From positions 496,001 through 560,000 of the forward strand of contig NZ_PEEX01000001.1 of assembly GCF_002754245.1 (NCBI RefSeq): a stretch of 64,000 nucleotides of DNA, in the 5' to 3' direction. Origin of the DNA: Chryseobacterium sp. 52 (GTDB lineage Bacteria > Bacteroidota > Bacteroidia > Flavobacteriales > Weeksellaceae). Below the pieces are notes generated by a model, which was not told where the DNA came from, made no database searches, and was given only the letters and a program-made list of their open reading frames with translations. How positions within the stretch are numbered: position 1 is the stretch's first letter; every line of letters begins with the position of its first letter. Position numbers and translations under genes: made by a program. Positions 15,945 to 30,913 of this stretch are shown here, in pieces.

Positions 15945-17216
15945 CTAATGGAATCTAAAATTAGCTTCAGGCAGTGTGTTGTTTTTTAAAAAAGCTTCAT
16001 ACTCCGGAGAAAGCTTTGCTCTTCCAAAAGTATTCTCTCCGCTCATGCTCCCTAAACGGACTTTATCTTTCCCGAATTTCTTATTCATGGCATCCATTGC
16101 TTTCATGGCCGGAAGATGCTGATTTTGGATATCTTCTTCAAAAAGACTGATCTGCCGCTCATCTTCAGGAACAAAATCATTGACGATAACTCCCGCCCTT
16201 TTGTAATGAAATCCGTCTCTGTAAATGGCTTCAAAGAGCTCGTTCACCACTCTTCCTATTAAAATAGAGGAATTAGCCGGATTGGGAAGAATCTGGGTGA
16301 TCGCATTTCTATATTCGGGAAGATCTTTTCTGAAACGGTTGGTCTGGACAAAAACAGTGACCATTCTGCAGCAGGTATTCTGTTTCCGGAGCCTTTCGGA
16401 GCAGTACATTCCAAAGGTTTCCACACGCTCCCGGACTTCTTCTTTTTTGGTAAGCATTTCCATAAAGCTTCTGGTAACAGCAATTGACTTTTTGGGAGAC
16501 GGGCTGTCCAATTCCAACTGGCGGATCCCTTTCAGCTCATTAATCATTCTAATTCCATGGATCCCCATGACCTTTCTGACCCACATTTCAGGCTTTTGGA
16601 GAAGATCCCAGGCTTTGTATACACCACTGTCCTGCATTTTCGCAGCAAGTTTACGGCCTATTCCCCAGACATCCCCTATATTGAGCCACTTTAGGGCTTT
16701 TTCAATTTTTTCCGGTGTATCGAGTGTATAAACTCCGTTAAATTGATCCGGATAATCTTTTACAATCCTGTTAGCCACTTTACACAGTGTTTTGGTAGGT
16801 GCAATTCCTATGCTTACGGGAATATTTTCTTTGGCTTTAATTTCATCTTTGATTTTAAGACAATAATCGCGGATATTTACGTATTTGAAACCTGAAAGCT
16901 CCAGAAAAAGTTCATCTATGCTGTAAACTTCGTATTCCAGAACATATGATTTTGAAATATTAATAACCTGCTGACTTTTGTAATTATACAATTCAAATTT
17001 CGCAGAAAAACTTTTCACATCATGTTGTTTGAAAAGATCTTTATATTTGAATGCAGGTGCAGCCATAGGAATCCCCAGATCTTTGGCTTCTTTGCTTCTG
17101 GACACCACACAACCGTCATTATTAGAAAGTACCACAACGGCTTTTCCCTCGAGAGACGGGTCAAGAGTTCTCTCACAGGAAACGAAAAAGTTATTGCAGT
17201 CTACTAAAGCGTACAT
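15945..17216 (-). CDS. umuC: Y-family DNA polymerase, UmuC (Pol V catalytic subunit)
   Basis: An error-prone translesion polymerase of normal UmuC length (423 residues). Active-site acidic residues are visible as Asp6 (MYALVDCNNFFVSCER) and Asp101-Glu102 in YSIDELFLELSG. A helix-hairpin-helix region (WLNIGDVWGIGRKLAAKMQDSG, near 173-195) and the little-finger domain follow. No umuD lies beside it, although umuDC pairs are usual. A minus-strand -7 box TAATTTTG (17241-17248) lies 25 bp upstream of the ATG, and a copy of the WYL-locus operator lies at 17338-17352. Confidence 0.95.
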   Translation of the reverse strand: MYALVDCNNFFVSCERTLDPSLEGKAVVVLSNNDGCVVSRSKEAKDLGIPMAAPAFKYKDLFKQHDVKSFSAKFELYNYKSQQVINISKSYVLEYEVYSIDELFLELSGFKYVNIRDYCLKIKDEIKAKENIPVSIGIAPTKTLCKVANRIVKDYPDQFNGVYTLDTPEKIEKALKWLNIGDVWGIGRKLAAKMQDSGVYKAWDLLQKPEMWVRKVMGIHGIRMINELKGIRQLELDSPSPKKSIAVTRSFMEMLTKKEEVRERVETFGMYCSERLRKQNTCCRMVTVFVQTNRFRKDLPEYRNAITQILPNPANSSILIGRVVNELFEAIYRDGFHYKRAGVIVNDFVPEDERQISLFEEDIQNQHLPAMKAMDAMNKKFGKDKVRLGSMSGENTFGRAKLSPEYEAFLKNNTLPEANFRFH

Positions 17217-17240
17217 GGCGGAATGATGATAATTTCACTA

Positions 17241-17248
17241 CAAAATTA
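17241..17248 (-). promoter_or_regulatory. -7 promoter box of umuC
   Basis: Reads TAATTTTG on the minus strand, matching TAnnTTTG, 25 bp before the ATG. Confidence 0.5.
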
Positions 17249-17337
17249 TCATTTTTAAAGATGAATATTCTCTTTTATCTCAAAATTAACACCACATTTA
17301 ACACACTGACTATTATGCAATTATTTTATTTTAAATA

Positions 17338-17371
17338 CGTCACGATTTGTCGCATTAACCTTTTAATTTGC
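17338..17371 (+). promoter_or_regulatory. WYL-locus operator/promoter copy A (between umuC and antiporter)
   Basis: CGTCACGATTTGTCG (17338-17352), an 11-bp spacer, then TAATTTGC (17364-17371). Operator sequence and spacing match the five copies at 19.2-28.8 kb, but the -7 box is imperfect. It points towards the 3' end of the antiporter gene, so it would make an antisense or short RNA. Alternatively only the near-symmetric operator acts here, on umuC. Confidence 0.55.
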
Positions 17372-17388
17372 CGCCCCGAGTTCTCAGT

Positions 17389-18972
17389 TTAGATCATCTT
17401 CAGACGCTCTTCTTCAAGGTCAATCTGGTATAATTGCTGGCGAATCACGTCTTCATTGATGGTAACATCTTTATTCAACTCTGAAAGATACTGTCTCTGG
17501 ACTTCCAGCATTTCAACAAAGATGATTTTATTTTTTTCATTCATCCAGCCGTCATCATTGGCTTTTGTTTTTTCTTCCCAGTGTTTCAACATCCTTTCCA
17601 CTCCCGCATGTCCCTGCAGTTCATTTTCATGTTTTGTTTTAAGAAATTGATAGACGTGCTGTTTAAGTTCATGCTTTATTTTCAATCTTGTCAGTTCTTC
17701 TTCCTCTTCATTCATAAAATCCTGAAATGCCCTTCCTTTACTGATAATATAAGGCAATGTAAGTCCCTGCACCAATAAAGTAAGCAGGATGACCACAAAT
17801 GTGATAAACAGGATAAGGTTTCTGTTGGGGAAAGGATCACCATTGCTAAGGGTAATAGGAATAGCAAGTGCCGCCGCCAGCGATACTACGCCTCTCATCC
17901 CTGTCCATCCAAGAAAAAGGGGCATGAGCAAACTTCTCCGTCTTGTGGATGCCCTCGGAGCAACACTTGGCCGAAAAACGTAGGTAGCCACCATGGCAGC
18001 ATAAGCGCTGATGATTCTCGCCAGAATAAGAACAGCAGTCACCAGTATCCCATATTGTATGGCTGTCATTAAAGGAATGCCTTCAGAACGCAGACCTCCC
18101 ACAATTTCAGGAAGCTCGAGACCAATGAGTAAGAAAACGATCCCGTTCAGTATGAATACAAAGCTTTCCCACACACTATGTCCTTTTATTCTGCTGGCAC
18201 TGTTTAGAAATATTAACCGTCTGGTCGACATAAATAAACCTCCGCATACTACAGCAAGTACACCTGAACTGTGAAACTGCTCTGCCACCCAGTACATGAT
18301 ATAAGGTTCTATAAGGGTCATTGCAATATCAGAAGAGGCGTCTGTAGGGAGTCTTTTATGAGCCTGTACGAAGATCCAGCCTAAAATCAGCCCGATTCCG
18401 GCACCTCCAATAACCATCCATATAAAACTAAGGGAAGCCTCCTGCCATACAAACTGTCCGGTACCAACGGCTATGAGTGCAAAACGGAAAATGATAAGTG
18501 AAGAGGCATCATTTAATAGGCTCTCTCCTTCCAGAATGGCAGAAGTTGTTTTAGGAATTTTCACAAATTTCATAATAGCTCCGGTACTCACAGCGTCAGG
18601 CGGAGACACAATCCCTCCCAGCAAAAACCCTAATGCAATTGTAAATCCCGGAATAAAATAGTTAGCCGCTATAGCGACCGACAATGCGGTGAAAAACACC
18701 ACTAAAAATGCAAAACTGCCTATAATACGCCACCATCTTTTCATTTCTTTAAAAGAAATCGCCCAGGAGGCTTCAAATAAGAGGGGTGGTAAAAATATAA
18801 AGAAAATAAGGTCGGGGTCCACCTTTACAACGGGAAGTCCCGGCACAAAACTTACTAACAGACCGAAGACGACCAGCAGAATCGGGTAAGCGATTTTCAG
18901 CTTAGTAGCCCACATATTCAGCAATACGATAGCCGCTATCATTGCCAGAAAAAAAGGTAAAATAGTATGCAT
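17389..18972 (-). CDS. Na+/H+ antiporter, CPA1 family
   Basis: 527 residues: about 12 transmembrane helices (residues 5-410) followed by a 110-residue charged cytoplasmic tail (NEEEEELTRLKIKHELKQHVYQFLKTKHENE...). Typical CPA1 segments are visible: FFIFLPPLLFEASW near 56-70, GGIVSPPDAVSTGAI near 115-130 and LEGESLLNDASSLI near 146-160, the last two carrying the conserved ion-binding acidic residues. It probably exchanges cytoplasmic Na+ for protons for pH and salt homeostasis. Single-gene unit. Confidence 0.93.
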   Translation of the reverse strand: MHTILPFFLAMIAAIVLLNMWATKLKIAYPILLVVFGLLVSFVPGLPVVKVDPDLIFFIFLPPLLFEASWAISFKEMKRWWRIIGSFAFLVVFFTALSVAIAANYFIPGFTIALGFLLGGIVSPPDAVSTGAIMKFVKIPKTTSAILEGESLLNDASSLIIFRFALIAVGTGQFVWQEASLSFIWMVIGGAGIGLILGWIFVQAHKRLPTDASSDIAMTLIEPYIMYWVAEQFHSSGVLAVVCGGLFMSTRRLIFLNSASRIKGHSVWESFVFILNGIVFLLIGLELPEIVGGLRSEGIPLMTAIQYGILVTAVLILARIISAYAAMVATYVFRPSVAPRASTRRRSLLMPLFLGWTGMRGVVSLAAALAIPITLSNGDPFPNRNLILFITFVVILLTLLVQGLTLPYIISKGRAFQDFMNEEEEELTRLKIKHELKQHVYQFLKTKHENELQGHAGVERMLKHWEEKTKANDDGWMNEKNKIIFVEMLEVQRQYLSELNKDVTINEDVIRQQLYQIDLEEERLKMI

Positions 18973-19184
18973 TGAAATCTTGTGTTTTTATTGTCCGCCC
19001 ATTTGACTGTACAATCTTTACAGGCTGGTTTTTACAAATATACAGTCAATTGTCTTTTCTTGTATTATTTTTTCTGATCATATTTGAACTTAATTTGAAA
19101 GTGTTTTAAAATCCTTTGAGCCCTCTTTAAAACTGTAAATCATTCACGAAAAATCTTTTTTTTATTAAAAATTTAAATTAAACA

Positions 19185-19218
19185 CGTCAAGTTTCGTCGC
19201 TTCTAATCTATATTTTTG
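19185..19218 (+). promoter_or_regulatory. WYL-locus operator/promoter copy B (M15 peptidase)
   Basis: CGTCAAGTTTCGTCG (19185-19199), an 11-bp spacer, then the -7 box TATTTTTG (19211-19218), 18 bp before the ATG of the M15 peptidase gene. The operator occupies the place of the usual -33 TTTG. Confidence 0.8.
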
Positions 19219-19236
19219 TTTTAAACAATACACATC

Positions 19237-19737
19237 ATGGACAAAGTCACAGAACAAAGAATAGACAAGCTTCATCCTTATGTAAGAGATGAAGTAAAGC
19301 AGATTATCAGAGAATGCGACGAAGCTCTAACCGGCAGAGCAAAAATCAGGATTACACAGGGACTAAGGTCTTTCGAGGAGCAGGAAAAGCTGTACGCTAT
19401 CGGAAGGATCACTTCAGGAAAAAAAGTTACCAATGCCAAAGCCGGACAGAGTATTCATAATTATGGTCTCGCGGTTGATATCTGTCTGATGATCGATGGA
19501 AAAACGGCAAGCTGGGATACCGTAAAAGACTGGGATAATGATAAAGTCGCCGACTGGTATGAGTGTGTAAAGATTTTCGCACGCCACGGCTGGGACTGGG
19601 GTGGAAACTGGAAGACTTTTAAGGACCTGCCCCACTTTGAAAAAAAGAATATTGAGACTAAAAAAGGACTGTTGAAAACGAGCTGGCGAACGCTATCAAA
19701 GATGCCAAGGGATCAGCAAAATTATATTCTGTTTTAA
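19237..19737 (+). CDS. M15-family peptidase, phage-endolysin-like (L-Ala-D-Glu / D-Ala-D-Ala peptidase)
   Basis: 166 residues with no signal peptide. The M15 zinc site is seen as SIHNYGLAVD (72-81; ligands His74 and Asp81) and the third histidine in PHFE (His133). The N-terminal ITQGLRSFEEQEKLYAIGR is the usual substrate-cleft segment. Its size and lack of a signal resemble phage endolysins of the T5/A500 type, which cleave stem peptides of peptidoglycan after release by a holin. No holin is seen nearby. It has its own operator-bearing promoter (copy B), so it belongs to the WYL-linked gene set. Confidence 0.9.
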   Translation: MDKVTEQRIDKLHPYVRDEVKQIIRECDEALTGRAKIRITQGLRSFEEQEKLYAIGRITSGKKVTNAKAGQSIHNYGLAVDICLMIDGKTASWDTVKDWDNDKVADWYECVKIFARHGWDWGGNWKTFKDLPHFEKKNIETKKGLLKTSWRTLSKMPRDQQNYILF

Positions 19738-19766
19738 TTCCCTTTTATTTGAAAATAATTATAATA

Positions 19767-19800
19767 CGACAAGTTCTGTCGCTTCCCCGCCCTACCTTTG
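19767..19800 (+). promoter_or_regulatory. WYL-locus operator/promoter copy C (patatin)
   Basis: CGACAAGTTCTGTCG (19767-19781), perfectly symmetric in its outer 5-bp arms, an 11-bp spacer, then TACCTTTG (19793-19800). The inferred start near 19807 gives a leader of about 120 nt containing a long hairpin. Confidence 0.82.
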
Positions 19801-19823
19801 TTTTATAAGAAAATGTTAGTTAA

Positions 19824-19889
19824 CTGAGATCTCAATACTAAAACCGGCATCTGCTTTCAAGGGCAGAAAGTTGGTTTTAGTTGTCTCAG
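19824..19889 (+). ncRNA. Structured RNA in the leader of the patatin gene
   Basis: Three nested stems are exact complements: CTGAGA (19824-19829) with TCTCAG (19884-19889), ACTAAAACC (19837-19845) with GGTTTTAGT (19873-19881), and TCTGC (19850-19854) with GCAGA (19863-19867). No T-run follows, so it is not a standard terminator. It lies wholly between the promoter and the ATG and could control translation or RNA stability. The class is unknown. Confidence 0.6.
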
Positions 19890-19928
19890 GGCCTTAATTT
19901 TATCTTTTAAAAACCAACAAAACATCAC

Positions 19929-20966
19929 ATGAAAAAGACAACCATTCTTTCTTTGGACGGGGGCGGAATAAGGGGTATTATTACCTGTATTATTCTCCGC
20001 TACATAGAAGAACAGCTTCAGTATCATGATAATCCGGGAGCCAAACTCGGTGATTATTTTGATCTGGTAGCCGGAAGCAGTACAGGAGGACTTATTGCTT
20101 CTATTATTCTATGTCCCGATGAGCACCGAAAAGCCAAATATTCTATCCAGAAAGGATTAGAATTATATGCTGAAAAGGGCGGCGACATCTTTCAGGTTTC
20201 TTTTTGGGAAAAGCTGGTCAATCCGTTTGGTCTGCTTAATGAAAAAATTTCTCAGGAAGCACTTGAAAAAAATCTGAATGACTTTTTTGGAAAACTGGAA
20301 CTTAAAGAATTCATAAAACCATGTTTAATAACCAGTTACGATATTGAAAACAGAAGAGCAAAGCTTTTTAATTCCAGGGAAGCCCATCTGAGTACAGATA
20401 ATTTTTACGTAAAAGATATCTGCAGAGCAACATCAGCAGCACCCACTTATTTCAGTCCGGTGCAGATCAAGTCTATGTACGGGCAGGTCTTCAGCCTGAT
20501 TGACGGCGGAATGTTTGCTAATAATCCTGCGTTGTGTGCTTATGCGGAAGCAAGAAAAATTCCTTTTGCCGAAGTATTAAAAAGCCATCTGAAAGCCAAT
20601 CATCCCGGTGTGAATGATATGATTATCGTTTCTATCGGAACGGGTATTGAATCCAGACCTTATTCTTTTAAAAAGCTGCAAAAGTCTGGAAAAATAGGCT
20701 GGGTAAATCCAATCATTGATATATTAATGTCTGCCAATGCAGAAACCGTAGATTATCAGCTCTGTCAGATGTTTCAGACGTTGGGACAGAGAAATCAGAA
20801 AAATTATTACCGTCTGAATCCGTCATTAAAAAATGCATCTCCGGGGATGGACAATGTGAGAAGATCAAATATTGAAAACCTGATCCAGGCAGGACTGAGC
20901 TATATCGATGATAACAGGGAAACACTGAATCAGATTGTACAGAAACTGATCAGAAATAAAATATAA
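19929..20966 (+). CDS. Patatin-like phospholipase, cytoplasmic
   Basis: 345 residues. The oxyanion-hole motif GGGIRG is at 11-16, the nucleophile elbow GSSTG at 49-53 (Ser51), and the catalytic aspartate in DGG at 192-194, followed by FANNPA: a complete Ser-Asp dyad. There is no signal peptide or membrane helix, so it should act on lipids from inside the cell. It resembles the CBASS effector CapV in length and order, but no CD-NTase gene is near. It has its own operator promoter (copy C) and a hairpin leader, which suggests tight control of a harmful activity. Confidence 0.92.
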   Translation: MKKTTILSLDGGGIRGIITCIILRYIEEQLQYHDNPGAKLGDYFDLVAGSSTGGLIASIILCPDEHRKAKYSIQKGLELYAEKGGDIFQVSFWEKLVNPFGLLNEKISQEALEKNLNDFFGKLELKEFIKPCLITSYDIENRRAKLFNSREAHLSTDNFYVKDICRATSAAPTYFSPVQIKSMYGQVFSLIDGGMFANNPALCAYAEARKIPFAEVLKSHLKANHPGVNDMIIVSIGTGIESRPYSFKKLQKSGKIGWVNPIIDILMSANAETVDYQLCQMFQTLGQRNQKNYYRLNPSLKNASPGMDNVRRSNIENLIQAGLSYIDDNRETLNQIVQKLIRNKI

Positions 20967-21039
20967 GCTTTTAACCTTATAACTATCCAATATAAGCTTA
21001 AAAGATAATATTTAAAAATTATAAAAAGTTTTTTTAACA

Positions 21040-21073
21040 CGTCAAGTTTTGTCGTCTTCCCTCACTACTTTTG
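21040..21073 (+). promoter_or_regulatory. WYL-locus operator/promoter copy D (56-aa protein)
   Basis: CGTCAAGTTTTGTCG (21040-21054), an 11-bp spacer, then TACTTTTG (21066-21073). It drives a leader of about 120 nt ending at the ATG at 21199. The whole promoter-leader is repeated at 21383. Confidence 0.82.
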
Positions 21074-21118
21074 GAGTATAAACAAAGACACAAAAAAGCA
21101 AACCATAAAATTTTACAA

Positions 21119-21165
21119 AGCCTTTGAATTCACCATTTATCAATGCTGGACAGCCAGAAATATGT
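21119..21165 (+). repeat. Conserved leader block, copy 1
   Basis: Starts CCTTTGAAT 81 bp after the operator start and includes GGACAGCCAGAA followed by TATGT. It is about 80% identical by eye to 21464-21511. One indel breaks any common reading frame, so conservation appears to be at the RNA or DNA level. Confidence 0.65.
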
Positions 21166-21198
21166 TTAAAACATAACCCCAACATCACAAGACAAAAT

Positions 21199-21369
21199 AT
21201 GGAAACACCAGATCACAATCCAGATATACTTTTCGATGAAGATCTCTATACTATTGAATGGAGCGACATCGAACATGCAGAGATGGACTATGAGAACTAT
21301 CTCAACGACATTGAAAACTTTTTCAGGGAAGATTTCACAGATGGTATTCCTGAAGAAAATATCTACTAA
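21199..21369 (+). CDS. Small acidic protein, 56 aa, unrecognised
   Basis: Begins METPDHNPD and ends GIPEENIY. It is strongly acidic (about 18 Asp/Glu against one Arg and no Lys), with no signal or membrane segment and a helix-like middle (SDIEHAEMDYENYLNDIENFF). The ATG at 21199 is preferred to an in-frame TTG at 21124, because that TTG falls in the conserved leader block, where a second copy has an indel. Such acidic proteins can be DNA mimics, chaperones or immunity proteins; nothing here decides between these. It is driven by promoter copy D. Confidence 0.7.
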   Translation: METPDHNPDILFDEDLYTIEWSDIEHAEMDYENYLNDIENFFREDFTDGIPEENIY

Positions 21370-21382
21370 ATACATTTTATCA

Positions 21383-21416
21383 CGACAAGTTCTGACGCTG
21401 TCCGGAATTATCTTTG
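21383..21416 (+). promoter_or_regulatory. WYL-locus operator/promoter copy E (structural operon)
   Basis: CGACAAGTTCTGACG (21383-21397; one mismatch in the right arm), an 11-bp spacer, then TATCTTTG (21409-21416). It lies upstream of the three-gene operon that starts at 21680, with a leader of about 255 nt. Confidence 0.75.
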
Positions 21417-21679
21417 AAACACCTAATCAAGACACCAGACATCATCCCATAATCATTCAAAATCACCTTTGAATCCATCATTCACAAAATGCCGGACAGC
21501 CAGAATTATGTCTGAAAATAACCAAAAAAACAATAAAAAATGAATCACAACATGAAATGCACAAGTGGGCATAAGTTCTACCACTTAAAAAATTAAAACC
21601 TTTTTAAGAGCTTCTGTAAAAAGACTCTTAAAACCATAATCTATTTATTAACCCAAAACAAAATCACACTGTTTTTATT
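21417..21679 (+). other. Long leader of the structural operon
   Basis: Contains the second conserved leader block (21464-21511), a possible 18-codon ORF (21540-21596, starting MNHNMKC), a stem AAGTGG/CCACTT (21563-21568 with 21581-21586) and a stem TTTTAAGAG/CTCTTAAAA (21602-21610 with 21625-21633). None of the stems is followed by a T-run. Leader regulation is likely, but the mechanism is unknown. Confidence 0.45.
21464..21511 (+). repeat. Conserved leader block, copy 2
   Basis: CCTTTGAATCC followed by GGACAGCCAGAATTATGT; the second copy of the block at 21119-21165, at nearly the same distance (83 against 81 bp) from its operator. Confidence 0.65.
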
Positions 21680-22321
21680 ATGAAAACAAAACAAGAATTA
21701 AGGCTCAAATTCGAGAACGGAGACAAGCCTACACAAGACCATTTCTGGGAATGGCAAGACTCTTACTGGCATAAGGATGAGAAGATAGAAATGTCCAAAA
21801 TTGCAGGTCTGGAAAACGGATTTCCGCGTTTCAATGACTTTTATGCCGAAGCAGATGAAGCCGGAAACGCTTCACTGGCTCATTTGCAGGTCAGAAGGAT
21901 CTTTATAAAACCAGGAACATTGCATATTCCCGATATGTTTGCAACCGGAATGGGCATATCCGAATTAACCCTTGCCAGCAGCCTTCTTACAATCGGAACG
22001 GATGCTTTCAGCAACAATGCATTAAAAACTTTAACCATTCCGGAAAATGTATCCATCATTAGTGAGCGGGCTTTTTCATCCAATCAGCTGACCTCAGTAA
22101 TCATCCCTGAAAGCGTCAAAGAAATTAAAGATTCTGCTTTTACTTACAATAAGCTCGGCGGATTATATATTCCCGCGAGTGTCGCAAAGATCGGCCCAAA
22201 CGCATTCAACTATAATCCTGAAGTATCTACTGTAATGCTGGATAGGTACACCCAGTATTATCCTGATTCTTTTGACCCCAAAACAAGGGTTGTTGGCGGA
22301 ACTCTGATCAGTGACATGTAA
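21680..22321 (+). CDS. BspA-type leucine-rich-repeat protein with shared N-terminal module
   Basis: 213 residues, no signal peptide. Residues 1-45 (KTKQELRLKFENGDKP.., FWEWQDSYWHKDEKI) match the N-terminus of the next gene product. After a linker, residues 90-190 carry LRR_5/BspA-like units of the form ALKTLTIPENVSIISERAF and SVIIPESVKEIKDSAF, which usually bind proteins or surfaces. The lack of a signal suggests it is held in the cytosol or assembled into a particle. It is first in an operon with the next two genes (gaps 15 and 30 bp). Confidence 0.85.
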   Translation: MKTKQELRLKFENGDKPTQDHFWEWQDSYWHKDEKIEMSKIAGLENGFPRFNDFYAEADEAGNASLAHLQVRRIFIKPGTLHIPDMFATGMGISELTLASSLLTIGTDAFSNNALKTLTIPENVSIISERAFSSNQLTSVIIPESVKEIKDSAFTYNKLGGLYIPASVAKIGPNAFNYNPEVSTVMLDRYTQYYPDSFDPKTRVVGGTLISDM

Positions 22322-22336
22322 ATTAAAGACAATATA

Positions 22337-23602
22337 ATGAAAACAAAACAGGAAATAAAACAATACTTCGAAAACGGAGACATTCCCAATCAGGAAGAGT
22401 TCTGGGAATGGCAGGATGCTTACTGGCATAAAGAAGAAAATATTGCCCAGGATAACGTCAGCGGACTGAAAGATGCTTTAAATGCTAAGCTTAGCAGGCC
22501 ACAGGCAGGAACAGGTTTTTATATTATTGCCCATAACGGGGATATTACCAGTTACTCCAAGTTAAATCTACAGTCTTACAATATTCCTTACTGGAATGGA
22601 TCAAGTCTTACAAGCAGCAGCATCTATCACAGTAATGATAAAACAGGTCTGGGAACGCAAACTCCTACGGAAATGCTTGAAGTAGCAGGAAATATCAAAA
22701 CTTCAGGACTGATTGTTTCTAATCTTCCGGCAGCGAATATCAATTACACCAAGAATCTGGTGGCGAAAGATGACGGAACAATCGGATGGGAAGCTAAATC
22801 TGTCTCTTCCGGAACTTACATCCCATTATCCGGAACAGTAGCCGGGAAGCCTATTTCAGGAAGCCTTGAACTGATGACGGAACAGCCTGAAGAAAATAAT
22901 ATGATCTACAGGAATAACGTAGATACAGGAGTAAGAAATGAAATCGGTTTTTATCCTTCAGGAATGATGATCTCATCTATAAACACTGCTCAAAATAGGG
23001 TCGTGTCCAAAATAGATCTTTCCAATGACGCTCTATATGTATCGGGTCCTTCTTCGCAGCTGTCTATGGATCAGGAAAGAACTACCCTCGCCTACTACAG
23101 TGGCCGGGCTATGAAAGGAATTGTAATAGATTCCAATATTGACGATCCCATTACAATCATGCATATATCACCTTCGGGCAAACCCAGAGGTCTTACAGGA
23201 GACGAATATTATGGAGATTATGCCGAATCCAAGGATTATATCCAAAAGCAATATGTAGACAAAAAAATGTCCTATTCCCGCGAGGAAGTAAGAACGGAAG
23301 GCACCTGGATCAATGGCAAACCTGTCTATAAAAAAACTCTTTTTTTCGACCAGATTCCAAGAACCGGGGAGATTGATCTAGGAAAGTATATTCCGGACAT
23401 TGAAACCATCGTTTCCAACGAAATGTTTACCGAATGGTGGGCTTTGGATATGGCATTCGCCGGCAACCAGTGGAGAAGCCAGATTTTCATCTCTGTAGAA
23501 ACGAAACTCATCAAAATTGAATTTCTGAAAGAGCCTGATTACGATTATTCCGCAATTAATTCCTTTACCATCACCCTGGAATACACAAAAAGAACTGATT
23601 AA
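22337..23602 (+). CDS. Tail-fibre-like protein with shared N-terminal module
   Basis: 421 residues, no signal peptide. It shares the N-terminal module (KTKQEIKQYFENGDIPNQEE, FWEWQDAYWHKEENI) with the preceding protein. After it come fibre-like beta repeats, including GLGTQTPTEMLEVAGNIKTSGL, a 'GxGTxxPxxxLxVxGN' unit common in Bacteroidota phage-tail and adhesin proteins, and TKNLVAKDDGTIGWEAK. The C-terminal 120 residues (KKTLFFDQIPRTGEIDLGKYIPDIETIVSNE) look like a compact receptor-binding or carbohydrate-binding tip. Inferred role: a fibre docked by the N-terminal module onto a shared partner, possibly the 1246-aa protein. Confidence 0.8.
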   Translation: MKTKQEIKQYFENGDIPNQEEFWEWQDAYWHKEENIAQDNVSGLKDALNAKLSRPQAGTGFYIIAHNGDITSYSKLNLQSYNIPYWNGSSLTSSSIYHSNDKTGLGTQTPTEMLEVAGNIKTSGLIVSNLPAANINYTKNLVAKDDGTIGWEAKSVSSGTYIPLSGTVAGKPISGSLELMTEQPEENNMIYRNNVDTGVRNEIGFYPSGMMISSINTAQNRVVSKIDLSNDALYVSGPSSQLSMDQERTTLAYYSGRAMKGIVIDSNIDDPITIMHISPSGKPRGLTGDEYYGDYAESKDYIQKQYVDKKMSYSREEVRTEGTWINGKPVYKKTLFFDQIPRTGEIDLGKYIPDIETIVSNEMFTEWWALDMAFAGNQWRSQIFISVETKLIKIEFLKEPDYDYSAINSFTITLEYTKRTD

Positions 23603-23632
23603 CAATAACAAAAACAACAACACAATATTAAA

Positions 23633-26600
23633 ATGGCAACAAACGACACAACCAACAACGCTTCACAAACTCTTTTCAGATTTGTAAGCCTGAGAAATCC
23701 TCAATTAACAGAAACTAAAGAAAAAAACTTAGGTTTCATCCACAGACCTCAAAAAGGTTTAACCAGCTTTTTTGATTCTTATATCAATCCTGCTGATTCT
23801 GCACTGACAAAATTCCAGGCTATGGAACGTGCTTCAAAGTCTTTCAATCCTACGGGTTTTGAAACGGAACTTAAAATAGAAGAAGGAGGCTACGCAGAAA
23901 TTCTGAAAATAGGAAGAAAAATTTCAAAACAGGAAGAGCTGACCGCGCTGGAAGAAAGTGCAGCAATCAACGCTTATCAATCCACCTCTAAAGATCAGGT
24001 CAGCATTTTATGGGATAACCTGATGTATCAAACGGCGTCCCAAAACAATTTTTATGTGAAAGAAGCTGTAGCTCACATCTTGAGAGCCCTTCATTTCGGA
24101 TATGTATGCACCCTTGCGTCAACGGACGAACTGGTAAAAATCAACGGTTCTGATCTCAAAGCAAAAGCGCTTGAAGCAAGAATTGTTCTTCCAATGAAAT
24201 TTTTTGGAGACGGCTACGAAGGCGAAGGTTCCGGAACAGGAAACCCTACTTCCCGTCAGCCCTTCACCGTGGGGAAATCTGCTATTGGAGACGATCCTAT
24301 TAACGAAACCAAAGCCGTTCTTTCTGTTCCTGCTAAAGAACAGCTAAAAGCCGAAGGTGAAAAAATTCTGGAACTTACGAACCTTAATTTAGAAAAAGAC
24401 AGTTTAAATGTTCTAAAATCTGAACTGGAAAAAGTACAGAAAATTTACCAGAAAACAAGAAACAAAGCGTATGATGAGGCTTATAAAGAATATCTTGCCG
24501 CGAATCAGCCGGCACTTGACAGGTACAGAGCTCAACTAAAAGAAATTCAGGACCAGATCACAAAGGAAATGACAGAGCAGGAAATCAATGCTTTGTATGC
24601 AAAGCTTGAAGAGCCTTCAATTCCTCCATTCGTCTTCACGTATAAGGATGAGATCAATTTCGGAGACTTCAAAGAAATGCTTTCATTGAATTCACTAAAA
24701 ATCTTCGTTGACAAATTTACCGCATTAACCAGCGGACAAAAACCTGAAGACGGTTTTGATTTCACAAAAATAAGTGTGGTATCCGACAGAAAGCTTCAGC
24801 TTGGAGCAGCAGTAGTTTCCATCACAGATGAGTTTGATACGTATCCTGAAGTCTTTGAAAAAATTGATGAAGAGCATGCTGCAAAATCTCAGAGCCTGTA
24901 TAATAAAACACCGGCTCAGGAACAAACATTTGCCAGCCTTGGAGGAATCCTTGTCCCTGTAGCTGATTCTTTTACACAATATGCGGCTAAAGTAACACCA
25001 AGATCATATTATTTAAAGGCAACACCTCAGGGAAGCATTTTTGCAGGCAGTCCGGCCTACCTTACATTCTATTATCAGGCAGATAGTTCAGCCTGGGGAA
25101 TCGCATCCGCTAAATTATTAATGATCTCAGATGTAGGTAATTTTGATGAGAGCTATAACAATATCGAAGTAGTCGATAATAAAGTGACTCTTGCTTCAAT
25201 TATGGTGGGCAAGTTCAGCAAATACATCCGAAACATCCAGATCAAAATCTACTTTAATAATGGTAAAGAGGCTTCACTGGATCTTTCAGGAATAGAACCT
25301 AACCAGGCCTATACTGACGTCTTATACGTTGAAGATATTAAAGATGAAACCGGAAATCCGGGCGGTGGTATTGAAAATCCTAAACCGGGAACTTTCATCC
25401 CTAAACATTTCGGTGTAAAGAGATTGGGTATTGCAGATTATCTGAAAGTAGAGCAAAGCGTTCACGCCTACGTTCCTGGAGAAGTCTCCAATATTGAGAA
25501 CGTAATGGCCAGCGAACTGCGTCATAAGTCTTCTGTAGCCAGAGATTATTCTGAAATTACAGATACCACTTCTGAATCTATTGAAACAGAGAAGATTTCT
25601 GACACTACAAAAGCGGACAGAAATGAAATGCAGACAGAAATCGCTCAAGAACTTAAAAAGGAACAGGCAATTACCGCGAGCACCAAGTTTACCTACGACA
25701 CAAAAGTAATGAAGTACGAGATAGGTGGAACCTATGCCAACAATACTTCACAGCAGGACAGTACCAAACAGGCCGTAAAAAAATCTCAGGAGATCACAGA
25801 GCGTGCCATGGAACGTGTCCTTACAAAGATCAATCAGGAACGTGTGCAGAAAATCATTAAAGAGTTTACCGAAACCAATGTACATGAATTTGATAACAGA
25901 GGCCAGGCCAGCCAGGAAAATCCTCAGCACATTACCGGAGTATACAGATGGGTCGATAAAAAAATGAAAAACCAGATCTACAACTACGGTAAACGTACGA
26001 TGTTTGAATTCATGATTCCGGAACCGGCAAGACTTCATACTCTGGCTACCGCAGTATCGAAAGCAGACATGCTTACCGCTCCGGCAGATCCAAGAAAAGC
26101 TGAAAAACCGTGGGGTATGGCAAGCGCTCAGGTGGCTACCAAAGATCAGGTAGAATATTGGGCTAATATCTATAACGTTAAACTTACAGAACTTCCAAAG
26201 TCCCCTATCAATATTATTTTAGGAAAGCAATGGGAAAAAGTAGACGGAAACGAAGAATACAGACACAGAACGATCGACATTCCTGTGAACTACGAAGCAA
26301 GCAGTGTAAAAATGTTCTATGGTTTTGAAAGAGACAGAAAAGGATCGAGTACGCTTTATACCAGCAACTTTGCAGGAGGAATGGTTCCTTTCCCAAATGG
26401 AGGTACTTCTATTGATGCTACCGCTTACTTCACGCCTCAAAACGTTACAGGATCTTATGATTTCGTGTACAAATGCAGCAACATTGATTCAGTAAATATT
26501 GCGTTTGAGATTACATGTAAACTTTCCCAGGCGTTCATGAAATCATGGATTCAGGAAAACTTTACAGCCATCATCAAAGCGTATGACGAAGCGTATGCTG

Positions 26601-27373
26601 TTTTCTTAGAAAAACAAAAGGAACTACAGGATAAAGCAAAAGAAGAGGAAGCTGCCAACAAAGAAAAGCTGGGTAACTTCTACCGTGAAATGGAATCTGT
26701 TATCCTGAAACACAACTGTATCGCTTATCTTCTTCAGGATTATCTGACTACTCTGGGACAGGCGTTCACTTCAGGAAGCCAAATGAGTGATTTCAAAGTA
26801 ATTCTGAGCGAAAACCTTGAACAATATACCGCTTTAGCCAAGTTTATGGAACAGGCGTTTGAGTGGAGTATCATGGATTATACGTTCTACCCGTATTACT
26901 GGGCAGACAGAAAGAGATGGCAGGAAATGTATCTTACACAAAGTGTAGATCCATTGTTCAGAAACTTCCTTCAGGCAGGTATGGCAAGAGTAATCGTAAC
27001 CGTGAAACCTGGTTTTGAAGACGCTGTACAGTTCTTCATGAGTACCGGAAAAATCTGGAACGGCGGTGAAGTTCCTGTTATCGGAGATCCGTTGTATATG
27101 TCTATTGTAGACGAATTGAGAAAGCCAACCGGCGAAGCTCAGGGTAAATTCTGGATCACAAGAATTCCTACTACATTAACGATCCTTCAGGCCAAGTCTG
27201 TAGGTCTGGAAGTAGAACAGGCTCTTCCGATCTTCCGTGAGGATGATCCTGCAAACTGTGAGAATCCGAAGGAGCTGGAAACAACGAGTCCTTTCAAGCT
27301 TGCTAACACACAAATGCAGCATGGAGGAGCTACCTCAACCCTACCTAAGGAACTGACAACAATTTTTAAATAA
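23633..27373 (+). CDS. Very large unrecognised protein, 1246 aa
   Basis: No family recognised. There is no signal peptide and no obvious transmembrane helix. Visible parts: an N-terminal region (1-190), a charged coiled coil of about 240-330 (KAEGEKILELTNLNLEKDSLN..., QLKEIQDQITKEMTEQE), a beta-rich middle (440-580) with many AxVTPRSYYLKATPQGS-like strands, a polar helical stretch near 640-760 rich in Ser, Thr, Glu and Lys, and a second coiled coil near 985-1030 (EKQKELQDKAKEEEAANKEK). The C-terminus is mixed alpha/beta and ends with a flexible tail. It is the last gene of the operon and ends at a strong terminator. A structural, scaffold or toxin-like protein is possible; the sequence does not decide. 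Confidence 0.85.
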   Translation: MATNDTTNNASQTLFRFVSLRNPQLTETKEKNLGFIHRPQKGLTSFFDSYINPADSALTKFQAMERASKSFNPTGFETELKIEEGGYAEILKIGRKISKQEELTALEESAAINAYQSTSKDQVSILWDNLMYQTASQNNFYVKEAVAHILRALHFGYVCTLASTDELVKINGSDLKAKALEARIVLPMKFFGDGYEGEGSGTGNPTSRQPFTVGKSAIGDDPINETKAVLSVPAKEQLKAEGEKILELTNLNLEKDSLNVLKSELEKVQKIYQKTRNKAYDEAYKEYLAANQPALDRYRAQLKEIQDQITKEMTEQEINALYAKLEEPSIPPFVFTYKDEINFGDFKEMLSLNSLKIFVDKFTALTSGQKPEDGFDFTKISVVSDRKLQLGAAVVSITDEFDTYPEVFEKIDEEHAAKSQSLYNKTPAQEQTFASLGGILVPVADSFTQYAAKVTPRSYYLKATPQGSIFAGSPAYLTFYYQADSSAWGIASAKLLMISDVGNFDESYNNIEVVDNKVTLASIMVGKFSKYIRNIQIKIYFNNGKEASLDLSGIEPNQAYTDVLYVEDIKDETGNPGGGIENPKPGTFIPKHFGVKRLGIADYLKVEQSVHAYVPGEVSNIENVMASELRHKSSVARDYSEITDTTSESIETEKISDTTKADRNEMQTEIAQELKKEQAITASTKFTYDTKVMKYEIGGTYANNTSQQDSTKQAVKKSQEITERAMERVLTKINQERVQKIIKEFTETNVHEFDNRGQASQENPQHITGVYRWVDKKMKNQIYNYGKRTMFEFMIPEPARLHTLATAVSKADMLTAPADPRKAEKPWGMASAQVATKDQVEYWANIYNVKLTELPKSPINIILGKQWEKVDGNEEYRHRTIDIPVNYEASSVKMFYGFERDRKGSSTLYTSNFAGGMVPFPNGGTSIDATAYFTPQNVTGSYDFVYKCSNIDSVNIAFEITCKLSQAFMKSWIQENFTAIIKAYDEAYAVFLEKQKELQDKAKEEEAANKEKLGNFYREMESVILKHNCIAYLLQDYLTTLGQAFTSGSQMSDFKVILSENLEQYTALAKFMEQAFEWSIMDYTFYPYYWADRKRWQEMYLTQSVDPLFRNFLQAGMARVIVTVKPGFEDAVQFFMSTGKIWNGGEVPVIGDPLYMSIVDELRKPTGEAQGKFWITRIPTTLTILQAKSVGLEVEQALPIFREDDPANCENPKELETTSPFKLANTQMQHGGATSTLPKELTTIFK

Positions 27374-27383
27374 TTCTAAAATT

Positions 27384-27411
27384 GGCGGTTGTAAAAGACC
27401 GCCTATTTTTT
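27384..27411 (+). terminator. Terminator of the structural operon
   Basis: GGCGGT (27384-27389) pairs with ACCGCC (27398-27403) across an 8-nt loop, followed by TATTTTTT. It separates the 1246-aa gene from the following AT-rich gene. Confidence 0.85.
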
Positions 27412-27433
27412 ATAACCAATTAAATTAAAAATC

Positions 27434-28549
27434 ATGTATAATTACAGACCTATAGGAGTTTATGGTGCAAAAACCAGGGCAGATGAGGAACGAGAAGATA
27501 GAAACAATAGTGGGAATGAAAATAAAATTACCCCGGACCTCTTTAAAAACAATAAAGCATTTTCACAAATAGCAAGTGACATTATTAAACAAAATCCTCA
27601 AATAAAAGTTGAGCGTCTTCAGGAATATTATAATCAAATTATTGATGATGATGCAGAACTTTTAGGAGTTGATGATGACATCAGGCAAATTTATGTTCAG
27701 TTATTAAATTTTAAAGTCCCTCAAAAAGGATTGGCACGATTGCAAGAAATTGGAGGGAAGTTGCAAAATATCAGAGGCAATGATAAGCAGCAAAGTAAAT
27801 TGGTCAATATGGATTACTTTTCGGTAAGAATTGAAAAAATGCCAACTTTTAAATTTAACGGACAATCTATGATCGCTGATCCTGGTATACTATTGAAAAA
27901 AATACGCGATAATTTTTTAACACTTTCAAAAGGAGAAGTAAATTTCGAATCTCACTGTAGGTATCTTCATATGAATGGAAGATGGCAGTTTATTCCTTAT
28001 CCTAGAACTCCTAAAGAAGAGATGAAACGATGGGAAAATAGAACCGGCAACACTATTTTTAAGATTGAAGCCAAATCGGCTATTCCAATCTACATTGGAA
28101 ATATGAGCATGCCTAAAATTCTCGATCCTGCAGACCATGGGGCAGTTCTCGAAAGTGAAACACTTCTGGACAGCTGGATTTTTACTACAATTTATACTCC
28201 AAAAACGGATACTCAACCTTTTTCCGGACATCGGCAATTTGGCATAGGAAAAGATAAAGATGGCTACTACCGTTTCTTTGCTCGAGCTATCGATAGAGTC
28301 TGGCCAAGCTCATTTATATTAGAAAATAATGGAAAGGAATGTTCTGTAAAAGATTATTTAACCATAGCAGATGCAACCTGGACTAATTTAATTAAAAATG
28401 TGTCTGAGTATATCGACAATAATAATGGAAAAACTACCATTATGCCTTCTGAGATTAATCGTATTGATTTTAATATTTTCTTTAGCAAATTTAGATCTGA
28501 CTATCCAGTAAATTTTGTTGGAAATATTGATCAGCATAAAAAAATATAA
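27434..28549 (+). CDS. Unrecognised AT-rich gene, 371 aa
   Basis: I do not recognise the product. It has no signal peptide or membrane segment. The first 120 residues are helical and polar (TPDLFKNNKAFSQIASDIIKQNPQIKVERLQEYYNQIIDDD), and from about 135 a mixed domain follows, with FESHCRYLHMNGRWQFIPYPRTPKEE, TIFKIEAKSAIPIYIGN and SGHRQFGIGKDKDGYYRFFARAIDRVW; the Arg, His, Asp and Trp residues give it an enzyme-like look. It sits between two terminators and its codons are visibly AT-richer than those of the operon upstream. No TAnnTTTG box was found before it. It may be a later-acquired cargo, effector or immunity gene. Confidence 0.75.
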   Translation: MYNYRPIGVYGAKTRADEEREDRNNSGNENKITPDLFKNNKAFSQIASDIIKQNPQIKVERLQEYYNQIIDDDAELLGVDDDIRQIYVQLLNFKVPQKGLARLQEIGGKLQNIRGNDKQQSKLVNMDYFSVRIEKMPTFKFNGQSMIADPGILLKKIRDNFLTLSKGEVNFESHCRYLHMNGRWQFIPYPRTPKEEMKRWENRTGNTIFKIEAKSAIPIYIGNMSMPKILDPADHGAVLESETLLDSWIFTTIYTPKTDTQPFSGHRQFGIGKDKDGYYRFFARAIDRVWPSSFILENNGKECSVKDYLTIADATWTNLIKNVSEYIDNNNGKTTIMPSEINRIDFNIFFSKFRSDYPVNFVGNIDQHKKI

Positions 28550-28582
28550 TTAGAAAATAGCTTTCATAATCAGAAAGCAAAT

Positions 28583-28614
28583 AAAAAGTGAGATTTAAAC
28601 GTCTCGCTTTTTTT
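28583..28614 (+). terminator. Terminator of the 371-aa gene
   Basis: AAAAAGTGAGA (28583-28593) pairs with TCTCGCTTTTT (28602-28612), with one G-U pair in the RNA, and runs into T residues. Confidence 0.8.
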
Positions 28615-28788
28615 ATAAAAATCAGAACTCAGATTTACATTTTAATTAAAGAAAAAAATTAATAACCAATATTCAATTGCACCCAACTGTTGCGATTCTT
28701 TATTTTACATTAAAAAAAATCATCCGTAAAAGATTAGATGTATAAAACTCAATAAATTTAAAATATCCTTCCACAAAAAATTATAACA
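28615..28788. other. AT-rich spacer upstream of the WYL gene
   Basis: No ORF, hairpin or promoter box that I can support is seen between the terminator and operator copy F. Confidence 0.5.
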
Positions 28789-28822
28789 CGACACGTTTTG
28801 TCGCATTAAGCCTATATATTTG
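28789..28822 (+). promoter_or_regulatory. WYL-locus operator/promoter copy F (WYL gene itself)
   Basis: CGACACGTTTTGTCG (28789-28803), an 11-bp spacer, then TATATTTG (28815-28822). It lies upstream of the WYL regulator gene, so autoregulation is likely. Confidence 0.82.
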
Positions 28823-28839
28823 TCTTATACAATTTTACC

Positions 28840-28866
28840 ATGAAACGCAGCTTTGCTGCCGCATAA
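28840..28866 (+). CDS. Possible 8-codon leader peptide before the WYL gene
   Basis: ATG at 28840 to TAA at 28866 would encode MKRSFAAA. It lies 11 bp before the WYL start, and its codons form a short hairpin, GCAGC-TTT-GCTGC (28847-28859). It could be a translational leader or only a structured 5' end. Low support. Confidence 0.3.
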   Translation: MKRSFAAA

Positions 28867-28877
28867 AATATAGACGA

Positions 28878-29798
28878 ATGAAAAAAGATTTTTATCTGAC
28901 AAGATATGCCTTAATTATAAAAAGATTAGAAAATTCTCCAGCTAACTATTCCCAGCTGGAGAGCTATCTTTTAAACTCTTTTGAATTTCAGGATGCAGGG
29001 ATCAAGAGTTACTCGATCCGTACGCTGCAGAGGGATATTCGGGAGATTTCTGATCTTTTTAATCTTTCCATTCACAACAAAAAGAAGGGAGATAACAGGT
29101 ATTATATCGAGAGCCGTCCCATCATGGAAGTGGATGAATACAACCAGAAACTATTGGAATCTTTCCAGGTAAGCAATGCTTTAAATCTTCATCCGGATTT
29201 TTCAGATTTTATCTTTTTCGAAAGCAGGAAACCAACCGGAATAGAGCATTTCTATGATCTCTTCTTCGCCATCCGTAATAAGAGAGTCGTAAGCTTTGAA
29301 CATTACAACTACAAAAACAAAATAATGACTTCCCGGAAAGTACATCCTTTGGCTTTGAAGGAATCCAAGGACAGATGGTACCTGATCGCGATCGATACTA
29401 AAGATAAGATCTTAAAGTCATTCGGTTTAGACAGGGTCAACTATCTGGATGTAAGCAAAAACAAGTTTCGTGAAAGGTATAATTACAATTTCAGAGAACA
29501 CTTTAAAAATGCTTTCGGCGTTATGAATCTGGCAGAGCAAAAGCCGCAGAATATCGTCATGAAATGCAGCAGACATCAGGGAGAATACATCAGAAGCTTT
29601 CCGCTTCACCAGTCTCAGAAAGAAACGAAGGAAACCCCGGAAGAGATCTATTTTGAGTTCTTCCTCCATCCTACTTACGATTTTATGCAGGAAATTCTTT
29701 CATACGGTAAGGAAGTCACCGTTCTGGAACCTAAATGTTTAGTTGATGACATCCGCACCCATCTCCAGGAGTCGCTGAACCGCTATTTTGAAAGCTGA
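28878..29798 (+). CDS. WYL-domain transcriptional regulator
   Basis: 306 residues. The N-terminal winged HTH is seen near 5-70 (YSIRTLQRDIREISDLFNLSI, the usual DNA-recognition segment of this family). The WYL domain runs from about 125 to 220, with the signature Trp-Tyr-Leu at 167-169 in DRWYLIAID and the conserved KVHPLALKE just before. A C-terminal WCX-like extension ends with the LVDDIRTHLQESLNRYF helix. WYL regulators sense nucleic acids or nucleotides and control phage defence (BrxR, CapW) or DNA damage (PafBC). Its own promoter carries the operator found at the other module promoters, making it the prime candidate binder. Confidence 0.93.
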   Translation: MKKDFYLTRYALIIKRLENSPANYSQLESYLLNSFEFQDAGIKSYSIRTLQRDIREISDLFNLSIHNKKKGDNRYYIESRPIMEVDEYNQKLLESFQVSNALNLHPDFSDFIFFESRKPTGIEHFYDLFFAIRNKRVVSFEHYNYKNKIMTSRKVHPLALKESKDRWYLIAIDTKDKILKSFGLDRVNYLDVSKNKFRERYNYNFREHFKNAFGVMNLAEQKPQNIVMKCSRHQGEYIRSFPLHQSQKETKETPEEIYFEFFLHPTYDFMQEILSYGKEVTVLEPKCLVDDIRTHLQESLNRYFES

Positions 29799-29853
29799 TA
29801 TTCAAGAGTAAAAAGCTCATATTTTTTGATTACATTTACATAAATATACTCTT

Positions 29854-30480
29854 TTGAAAGCTTTACTTCTCTACATATTCTGCCTGATTTCCTCATTTTG
29901 CTTTTCCCAGCAGAAAGAAGAGTTCCGGAATGTAAAAAACTTTTACAACCAACATCGGAACATGCTGAATACAGAGTTCAAAAAGAAGTTTGATCTGGAG
30001 CCGGATTCATTCAGGAAAGCAAACATCAAACTCGATTTTGTTCTTTTCATGAAAAAGATGGACAGTATCGAAAATGTAGCAATGATAGGAGCTCTGTTAA
30101 AAGTAAGAAATCTGGAAGATCTACAGTCATTGAAGCAACCGGGAAGCATTGCAGAAAACAACACTGAGAAACCTGCAGACTTCGAAAAACATGCAGATTA
30201 TCCAGGCGGATTCATTATGTTGAGACAGGAAGTTGCCAATCTATTTTACACTGACGGAGTCTACACTGAAGCCAAAACCGTAAAAACAGATGTTGCCTTT
30301 ATTGTTGAAAAAGATGGCAGCATCAGCAATGTTCATGCAAAAGGCGATAATTTCACCTTCAACAGACAGGCTGAAATTGCACTGTATTCCGTTTCTGAAA
30401 AATTTTCCCCAGCCTTTCTCAAAGGAGATCCGGTAAGATACTACCTGAGACTTCCTTTAACCTTAACCATTGAAGATTAA
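29854..30480 (+). CDS. Secreted protein with TonB-C-like C-terminus
   Basis: 208 residues. The start is a TTG at 29854: the next residues (KALLLYIFCLISSFCFSQQ) form a good signal peptide and no nearby ATG would preserve it. The C-terminal 90 residues (TDVAFIVEKDGSISNVHAKGDNFTFNRQAEIALYSVSEKFSPAFLKGDPVRYYLRLPLTLTI) match the energy-transducer TonB C-terminal fold, but the usual N-terminal TonB membrane anchor and proline-rich linker are absent, so it is not a classical TonB. Its stop codon is immediately followed by the tadA ATG. Confidence 0.78.
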   Translation: MKALLLYIFCLISSFCFSQQKEEFRNVKNFYNQHRNMLNTEFKKKFDLEPDSFRKANIKLDFVLFMKKMDSIENVAMIGALLKVRNLEDLQSLKQPGSIAENNTEKPADFEKHADYPGGFIMLRQEVANLFYTDGVYTEAKTVKTDVAFIVEKDGSISNVHAKGDNFTFNRQAEIALYSVSEKFSPAFLKGDPVRYYLRLPLTLTIED

Positions 30481-30912
30481 ATGTTTACCGACGAACATTA
30501 TATGAAAATAGCCCTGCAGGAAGCAGAGGCTGCATTAGAAAAAGATGAGGTACCTATCGGCTGCATCATCGTTTCCAATAACCGCATTATTGCAAGAGCT
30601 CACAACCTTACCGAAACACTAAACGATGTAACCGCCCACGCAGAAATGCAGGCTATTACTTCTGCTGCCAACTTCCTTGGAGGCAAATATTTAATCAACT
30701 GTACACTTTATGTTACAATGGAACCGTGCGTAATGTGTTCGGGAGCACTGGCATGGTCACAGATCTCCAAAGTCGTGATTGGTGCCAGAGATGAACAGAG
30801 AGGGTTTATCAACAAACATCTTTCTCTACATCCAAAAACAGAAATGGTAACCGGAATCATGGAAAATGAATGTTCATCAATCGTTAAAGAGTTTTTTAAA
30901 AGTAAAAGATAA
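30481..30912 (+). CDS. tadA: tRNA-specific adenosine deaminase
   Basis: 143 residues. Converts A34 to inosine in tRNA-Arg(ACG). The zinc site is His53-Ala-Glu55 (HAEMQ) and PCVMC with Cys83 and Cys86, and the substrate-binding VPIGCIIV segment is at 24-31. The start directly follows the upstream stop codon, so the two genes are translationally linked. Confidence 0.95.
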   Translation: MFTDEHYMKIALQEAEAALEKDEVPIGCIIVSNNRIIARAHNLTETLNDVTAHAEMQAITSAANFLGGKYLINCTLYVTMEPCVMCSGALAWSQISKVVIGARDEQRGFINKHLSLHPKTEMVTGIMENECSSIVKEFFKSKR

Positions 30913-30913
30913 T

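Follow-up and report, generated by a model that had tools for sequence, protein, structure and literature searches.

The question raised by a 64,000-nucleotide stretch of the Chryseobacterium sp. 52 genome (assembly GCF_002754245.1, contig NZ_PEEX01000001.1, positions 496,001 to 560,000; hereafter the window) is what a short, palindrome-like operator, found six times around a gene for a WYL-domain regulator, does at the promoters it marks, and which protein reads it. Our answer, held with considerable confidence, is that a WYL activator resembling DriD of Caulobacter crescentus and PafBC of mycobacteria controls its own gene and a toxin-like regulon through this operator, set 11 bp from the −7 promoter box.

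Operators phased to a −7 box

The original prediction for this DNA described six sites that fit CGWCA-N5-TGTCG, each separated by 11 bp from the TA of a −7 box (TAnnTTTG), and all six proved to be placed correctly. Scored out of 16 against the strict motif, CGWCA-N5-TGTCG-N11-TAnnTTTG, they are as follows.

17338..17371, + strand: site A, 14/16, with TAATTTGC as its −7 box; 122 bp from the umuC start and facing the 3′ end of an antiporter gene
19185..19218, + strand: operator-promoter of the M15 peptidase gene, 15/16 (genome motif scan; counterparts in other genomes)
19767..19800, + strand: operator-promoter of the patatin gene, 16/16 (genome motif scan; module loci of relatives)
21040..21073, + strand: operator-promoter of the transcript of a 56-amino-acid (aa) open reading frame (ORF), 16/16 (genome motif scan; module loci; target-class count)
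21383..21416, + strand: operator-promoter upstream of the leucine-rich repeat (LRR) and cargo genes, with TGACG as right arm (genome scan; TGACG survey of the genus)
28789..28822, + strand: operator-promoter of the WYL gene itself, 16/16 (genome motif scan; conserved at the promoters of homologues)

The operator is perfect in four of the six (17338, 19767, 21040, and 28789) and has a single right-arm mismatch in the other two (CGTCG at 19185, TGACG at 21383). The gap to the TA is exactly 11 bp in every case, and the −7 box is perfect in all except site A. As had been stated, five sites precede genes of one module, encoding the M15 peptidase (start at 19237), the patatin (19929), the 56-aa ORF (21199), the LRR protein (21680), and the WYL regulator (28878). 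Since the operator alone, with up to two mismatches, is about as frequent in the window as expected by chance (43 matches vs. 39.5), the signal is the operator plus a phased −7 box, not the operator by itself.

The strict motif has 10 perfect matches in the 5.3-Mb genome (one contig), three in the window and seven elsewhere, against a chance expectation of ~0.004 (base frequencies taken from 203 kb). It occurs in 145 of 148 genomes of the genus, compared to none for a reversed control, which was also absent from 197 genomes of the family (50 of them of the genus). Chance cannot account for such numbers. Allowing up to two mismatches gave 20 matches in the whole genome vs. 10 for the reversed control and, therefore, two-mismatch matches, 17338 taken alone included, are not individually significant. 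The operator stood as originally described except in its right arm, which accepts A as well as T (TGWCG): CGWCA-N5-TGACG, at the same spacing, was found in 87/148 genomes of the genus (2 control matches).

When spacers of 6-16 bp were allowed in 15 genomes, 128/128 sites had 11 bp, and the reversed control gave 2 matches. A TTG usually lies 17-23 bp before the −7 box. None of 65 distinct sites has one in that range, a result implied in part by the fixed letters of the motif, and because of this absence the promoters look weak without help. In Flavobacterium psychrophilum, the housekeeping −7 box, TAnnTTTG, spans −12 to −5 (PMC9723704); the operator is therefore located at about −38 to −24, with its centre at −31.

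That the motif is a chance sequence, or a repeat-borne one spread with copied Rhs cassettes, can for practical purposes be discounted. Some Rhs-type promoters are indeed identical copies (L006, L009), but the sites stand before unrelated genes (WYL, M15, patatin, and a gene for a 233-aa protein), 65 of 70 sequences collected from nine genomes are distinct, and conservation at WYL promoters, described below, also opposes such a spread. A chance origin is ruled out by the zero reversed controls in the genus, the invariant spacing, and the low expectation.

The WYL protein as predicted binder and activator

The regulator encoded at the last of the six sites is a single gene:

28878..29798, + strand: WYL regulator, 306 aa, in the order helix-turn-helix (HTH), WYL, WCX; Pfam matches to WYL and WCX, DriD as top fold match

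It is 98% identical to the protein of C. vrystaatense and closest to those of named Chryseobacterium. Pfam returned WYL (1.3e-12) and WCX (3.1e-7) and no HTH match; HTH-like helices are present in the predicted structure (pLDDT 79, pTM 0.49), which gives the protein the architecture of a WYL transcription factor, i.e., an N-terminal HTH, a WYL domain, and a WCX extension. A fold search with this model placed DriD first (2.0e-13; the best solved structural match, over 336 alignment columns), followed by PafBC (4.4e-13) and then by BrxR (1.2e-9) and CapW.

The strongest evidence for the WYL protein as binder is the site at its own promoter. Among 80 named loci (the best 80 of 510 relatives, partly from the same genomes as the genus survey: 77 Chryseobacterium, 2 Weeksellaceae, and 1 Flavobacterium), a 16/16 site lies 16-85 bp before the WYL start codon in 80/80. 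All 65 distinct WYL-promoter sites from these loci contain CGAC-N7-GTCG, and the form A(C/T)ACGAC-N7-GTCG(C/T)AT dominates. Sixty-two further loci, mostly more distant homologues or paralogue controls, comprised 24 with a site of at least 15/16, 8 with one of 13-14/16, and 30 with none. At 57% WYL identity or more, 14/17 of these had the promoter site; at 40% or less, 10/45 had a site of at least 15/16, homologues so marked reaching 34-40% identity, and three of them (L139, L141, and L144) belong to two other families. The three WYL paralogues of this genome have neither a promoter site nor a site of up to two mismatches in the genome scan. Start codons of the most distant homologues and of the paralogues are uncertain (short local matches), and the paralogue result leans on the genome scan. 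Considering that the site label is clustered on the WYL tree (11 changes vs. a shuffled mean of 19.8) yet not confined to one clade, the site has either been inherited from an ancestor and lost in some lineages or arisen more than once. At four distant WYL genes (L176, L177, L157, and L158), diverged sites of 13-14/16 with the same 11-bp spacing, such as CGCCGTATTTTGTCG, were observed; these are perhaps operators that evolved with their regulators.

A genome-wide motif search across Chryseobacterium, compared with the occurrence of WYL homologues, had been proposed as a check, and in it sites co-occurred with the orthologue. An orthologue (at least 72% identity, one broken copy counted) is present in 146/148 genomes of the genus, the others being G060 (no match at 1e-20) and G104 (a distant match only, 1.9e-31). 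With both right arms counted, sites occur in 146/146 genomes with the orthologue and 0/2 without it (Fisher 9e-5); the strict motif alone occurs in 145/146, the exception being G029. Outside the genus, the strict motif was found in 21/22 genomes with a WYL protein of at least 58% identity vs. 16/125 others. Conservation at its own promoter, co-occurrence, and an operator core shared with DriD thus strongly favour the proposed regulator: on sequence grounds, the WYL protein is very probably the predicted binder of the operator.

How such a protein might act is suggested by two described activators. DriD has the operator consensus ATACGAC(X)7GTCGTAT, which overlaps the −35 at one distance from the −10, at promoters with a poor −35 (PMC12340889). 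The Chryseobacterium system has the same core, CGAC-N7-GTCG, as a pseudo-palindrome at every WYL promoter of the named loci, the same domain order, an operator over the −35 region at a fixed distance from the −10 with a poor −35, and, in all 80 named loci, a site upstream of the regulator's own gene, as DriD has. The PafBC promoter reads tTGTCRgtg-8nt-TannnT, i.e., TGTCR, 11 nt, TA (PMC5656591), and PafBC acts by sigma adaptation after binding single-stranded DNA (ssDNA) and depends on RNA polymerase for binding its promoter (PMC11804915). Its TGTC(G) half-site, 11 nt, and TA recur here, and sigma adaptation without contact to a −35 would be the mechanistic parallel. The Chryseobacterium sites combine the operator core of DriD with the spacing of PafBC. 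Operator, spacing, and fold agree, and sequence similarity covers WYL-WCX only. On this basis we regard the WYL protein as a DriD/PafBC-type activator; operator, geometry, own-promoter site, and fold are the grounds on which we place it with DriD, as a regulator that works like DriD. By analogy with the geometry of both systems, and given the missing TTG, the original suggestion that these promoters depend on an activator gains support.

The likeness has its bounds. Full-length fold alignments with DriD show just 14-17% identity, the promoters here are the TAnnTTTG promoters of another phylum, and DriD activates division, death, and repair genes, whereas the Chryseobacterium targets are Rhs-type and module genes. 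PafBC is a heterodimer of PafB and PafC on a non-palindromic motif with a DNA-damage regulon, in contrast to the single gene and two-armed pseudo-palindrome found here. SiwR of M. smegmatis, a WYL activator that responds to genotoxic stress, may be a further parallel in that the homodimer binds an imperfect palindrome between the −35 and −10; it is likened by this description, not by palindrome sequence, and it controls adjacent DinB-superfamily genes.

A WYL protein could also act as do BrxR and CapW, repressors from the same domain family, and block polymerase at the −33 region until a signal releases it. We consider this improbable. Both are WYL repressors of the same fold family, autoregulation is common among repressors, and the site does overlap the promoter. 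A fixed 11-bp phase, however, is needless for repression and is nevertheless found in 128/128 sites, the promoters look weak unaided, the BrxR box (R-BOX1) is located downstream of its promoter, and the operator core is that of an activator, DriD, which with PafBC provides closer folds than either repressor. BrxR and CapW are tied to phage defence. PADLOC, run on seven module proteins, matched patatin to phospholipase-effector models and otherwise gave WYL-type models alone, one of them, for the WYL protein, named Cas3c, with no association to a BREX, CBASS, or other phage-defence operon.

As an activator, a WYL dimer would bind the pseudo-palindrome CGWC(A-N5-T)GWCG, centred near −31, over the place of the missing −33 box, and the 11-bp phase would let the bound protein bring RNA polymerase, with its housekeeping sigma factor, to a promoter that is weak by itself. 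Operator binding, activation, and contacts between dimer and polymerase are what we infer from this arrangement. Under such control would come the WYL gene itself, the adjacent module (M15 peptidase, patatin phospholipase, 56-aa ORF, and variable polymorphic-toxin-like cargo), the Rhs-type cassettes dispersed over the chromosome, and a conserved 230-233-aa protein. By analogy with PafBC and with DriD-type activators, which are switched on by ssDNA in the WYL groove, ssDNA may be the activating signal.

Several observations weigh against this reading. The left arm is CGTC in 31/65 distinct sites from the nine genomes, vs. CGAC in DriD. The fold model has a pTM of 0.49 and superposes poorly overall (TM about 0.5), and the profile match to DriD (4.6e-13) spans WYL-WCX only, with no sequence match in the HTH part. 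Because the driD gene is not activated by DriD (PMC12340889), the analogy gives no reason to expect autoactivation here. No site was found at 28 of the 45 distant homologues, and 7 have one of 13-14/16 only. The contrast within the genus is weaker than it seems, since G060 and G104 both lack everything from umuC to WYL, with the same genes on either side, which may reflect a single event. The 16 genomes outside the genus that carry the motif without a close orthologue have 1-2 strict motifs each; 13 of them have a homologue of 33-38% identity, and three (G245, G262, and G268) have no WYL match at 1e-20. G063 keeps 11 sites despite a WYL copy with 4 in-frame stops (genome 75% complete). G029 encodes a WYL protein of 86% identity behind a promoter without a site, and in L083 the 320 bp nearest to WYL are free of sites, one lying ~710 bp upstream. 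No HTH change that might have caused the operator change in G029 was visible by eye.

Two of these observations, the three genomes with a motif and no WYL match and the sites kept in G063, would be expected if another factor, such as a WYL paralogue or an alternative sigma factor, used the motif and WYL were merely one of its targets. We regard this as very unlikely, since the two motif-free genomes of the genus keep three WYL-domain genes each, and the motif is therefore not maintained by paralogues alone. In this genome no site of up to two mismatches lies at the paralogues, TAnnTTTG is the housekeeping −7 box, and the operator shares its core with that of a WYL protein.

The adjacent module and scattered targets

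The genes of the window from umuC to the last cargo gene are listed below.

15945..17216, − strand: umuC-like Y-family polymerase, a conserved neighbour with its own −7 box
17389..18972, − strand: Na+/H+ exchanger (antiporter) gene that separates umuC from M15 here and in some relatives
19237..19737, + strand: M15 peptidase, endolysin-like; no signal peptide by inspection
19929..20966, + strand: patatin-like phospholipase (family match)
21199..21369, + strand: conserved acidic 56-aa ORF, no Pfam match
21680..22321, + strand: BspA-type LRR protein (family match), start of the variable cargo
22337..23602, + strand: 421-aa cargo protein with an N-terminal stretch in common with the LRR protein
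23633..27373, + strand: 1246-aa cargo protein, no family match
27434..28549, + strand: 371-aa product of the last cargo gene, its body variable (only 23 aa match the corresponding gene in L135)

Across the fetched loci, the typical module runs umuC, M15, patatin, 56-aa ORF, variable cargo, WYL, a 208-aa protein, and tadA, and in most of them sites precede M15, patatin, the 56-aa ORF, and WYL; not all loci show all members (no M15 is seen in L060, and some of the retrieved pieces stop short). The M15 protein resembles phage endolysins, the patatin resembles phospholipase effectors of defence systems, and inspection found no signal peptide in either. Since the cargo of relatives includes SUKH-1, EndoU, and an Imm35-like match just below threshold (25 bits, cut-off 27.5), i.e., immunity and toxin families in variable cargo between fixed genes, the module is, judged from these relatives, a predicted locus of polymorphic-toxin type. 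Family scans of the window's own cargo gave no SUKH, EndoU, or Imm35 type match.

The original prediction of a regulon was supported with respect to the module genes and had missed the Rhs-type cassettes scattered outside the window, to which it now extends; sites recur throughout the genus before the same gene classes. Of the 73 strict sites in nine genomes, 70 were retrieved, and 66 of these were assigned to gene classes, an after-the-fact figure, as class references were drawn from site-bearing genes of the same set and each class includes its own reference. The classes comprised Rhs-type head genes (23), the 56-aa ORF (9), WYL (9), the 230-233-aa protein (8), M15 (6), patatin (5), and three small classes of 2 each, with 4 others. 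No DNA-repair gene was seen as a clear target among the 70 sites, umuC being merely a neighbour.

The product of the Rhs-type head gene is ~540 aa long, with a sorting tail of the type IX secretion system (T9SS) and weak beta-propeller matches. In this genome, inspection downstream of four of the five strict head loci showed long proteins after the head gene; of two scanned, one has an Rhs core domain and DUF6443 and the other DUF5977. A spacing-11 site lies within 500 bp upstream of 30/30 head genes from 8 genomes (30 loci returned from 47 match rows): 19 are perfect, 6 score 15, 4 score 14, and 1 scores 13. The antisense control gave 25 heads at 11-12/16, 1 at 13, 1 at 14, and 3 with none; since it reaches 13-14 twice, the five lowest head sites are within its reach. 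In G029, where the strict motif is absent, 4 TGACG sites occur, and the three heads examined there have TGACG sites of 13-15/16. Outside the module, single-mismatch sites of this genome precede a sixth head gene, two further genes for large proteins, and the gene for a 1358-aa protein, whose N-terminus resembles by inspection that of the 1246-aa cargo protein. The 230-233-aa target (MELPFYL...; L022, 8022-8720) has its start codon 20-21 bp past the −7 box in 8/8 copies; it has no family match, and its fold model was too poor for a structure search (pLDDT 55.6).

If our reading is correct, Bacteroidota have a WYL regulon whose operator, geometry, and targets are defined from sequence, and promoter activation in the mode of DriD and PafBC would operate in a phylum whose sigma factor reads TAnnTTTG. 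One switch would serve the many Rhs-type cassettes of Chryseobacterium, and it could then be tested which signal switches them on. The novelty lies in a different phylum, a different type of promoter, and a regulon centred on toxins. Among the open-access papers listed (most subscription papers lie outside this scope), titles and abstract openings showed no report of a WYL regulon in Chryseobacterium or of a WYL protein controlling Rhs genes. A tentative, rather doubtful extension is that an ssDNA-sensing WYL activator would give Bacteroidota a LexA-independent DNA-damage response with attack, not repair, as its output: surface Rhs-type toxins would be fired, and lysis of a few cells by the endolysin-like peptidase and the phospholipase would set cytoplasmic toxins free, in parallel to the colicins under SOS control.

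Site 17338, the weakest of the six, gains support from other genomes, since a position-matched site, 117-124 bp from the umuC start, is present in six of the nine other loci that show umuC (L051, L074, L078, L129, L130, and L132); the closest listed site in the remaining three is 192, 300, or 351 bp off. The matching site is perfect (16/16) in L129, L130, and L132, from genomes that also have the antiporter gene between it and M15, which makes a simple relic doubtful. A role as the −33 region of umuC is ruled out, as the TAnnTTTG box of umuC lies ~89 bp from the operator and is kept in six aligned loci. Transcription from 17338 would run antisense to the 3′ end of the antiporter gene.

A further conserved element, approximately TTTGAATTCAMCATTCAC-AAATGCTGGACAGCCAGAA-TATGT, was observed at 21122-21177 and 21468-21523 of the window, its TGCTGG part starting ~104 bp after the operator start. 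An Rfam scan of 17000-31000 up to E 0.1 gave no match, and a hairpin was rejected because the CTGG/CCAG pairing is not kept, by eye, across 20 aligned copies. Fifteen of the 16 module loci scanned contain the element, usually in two copies, one ahead of the 56-aa ORF and one ahead of the cargo.

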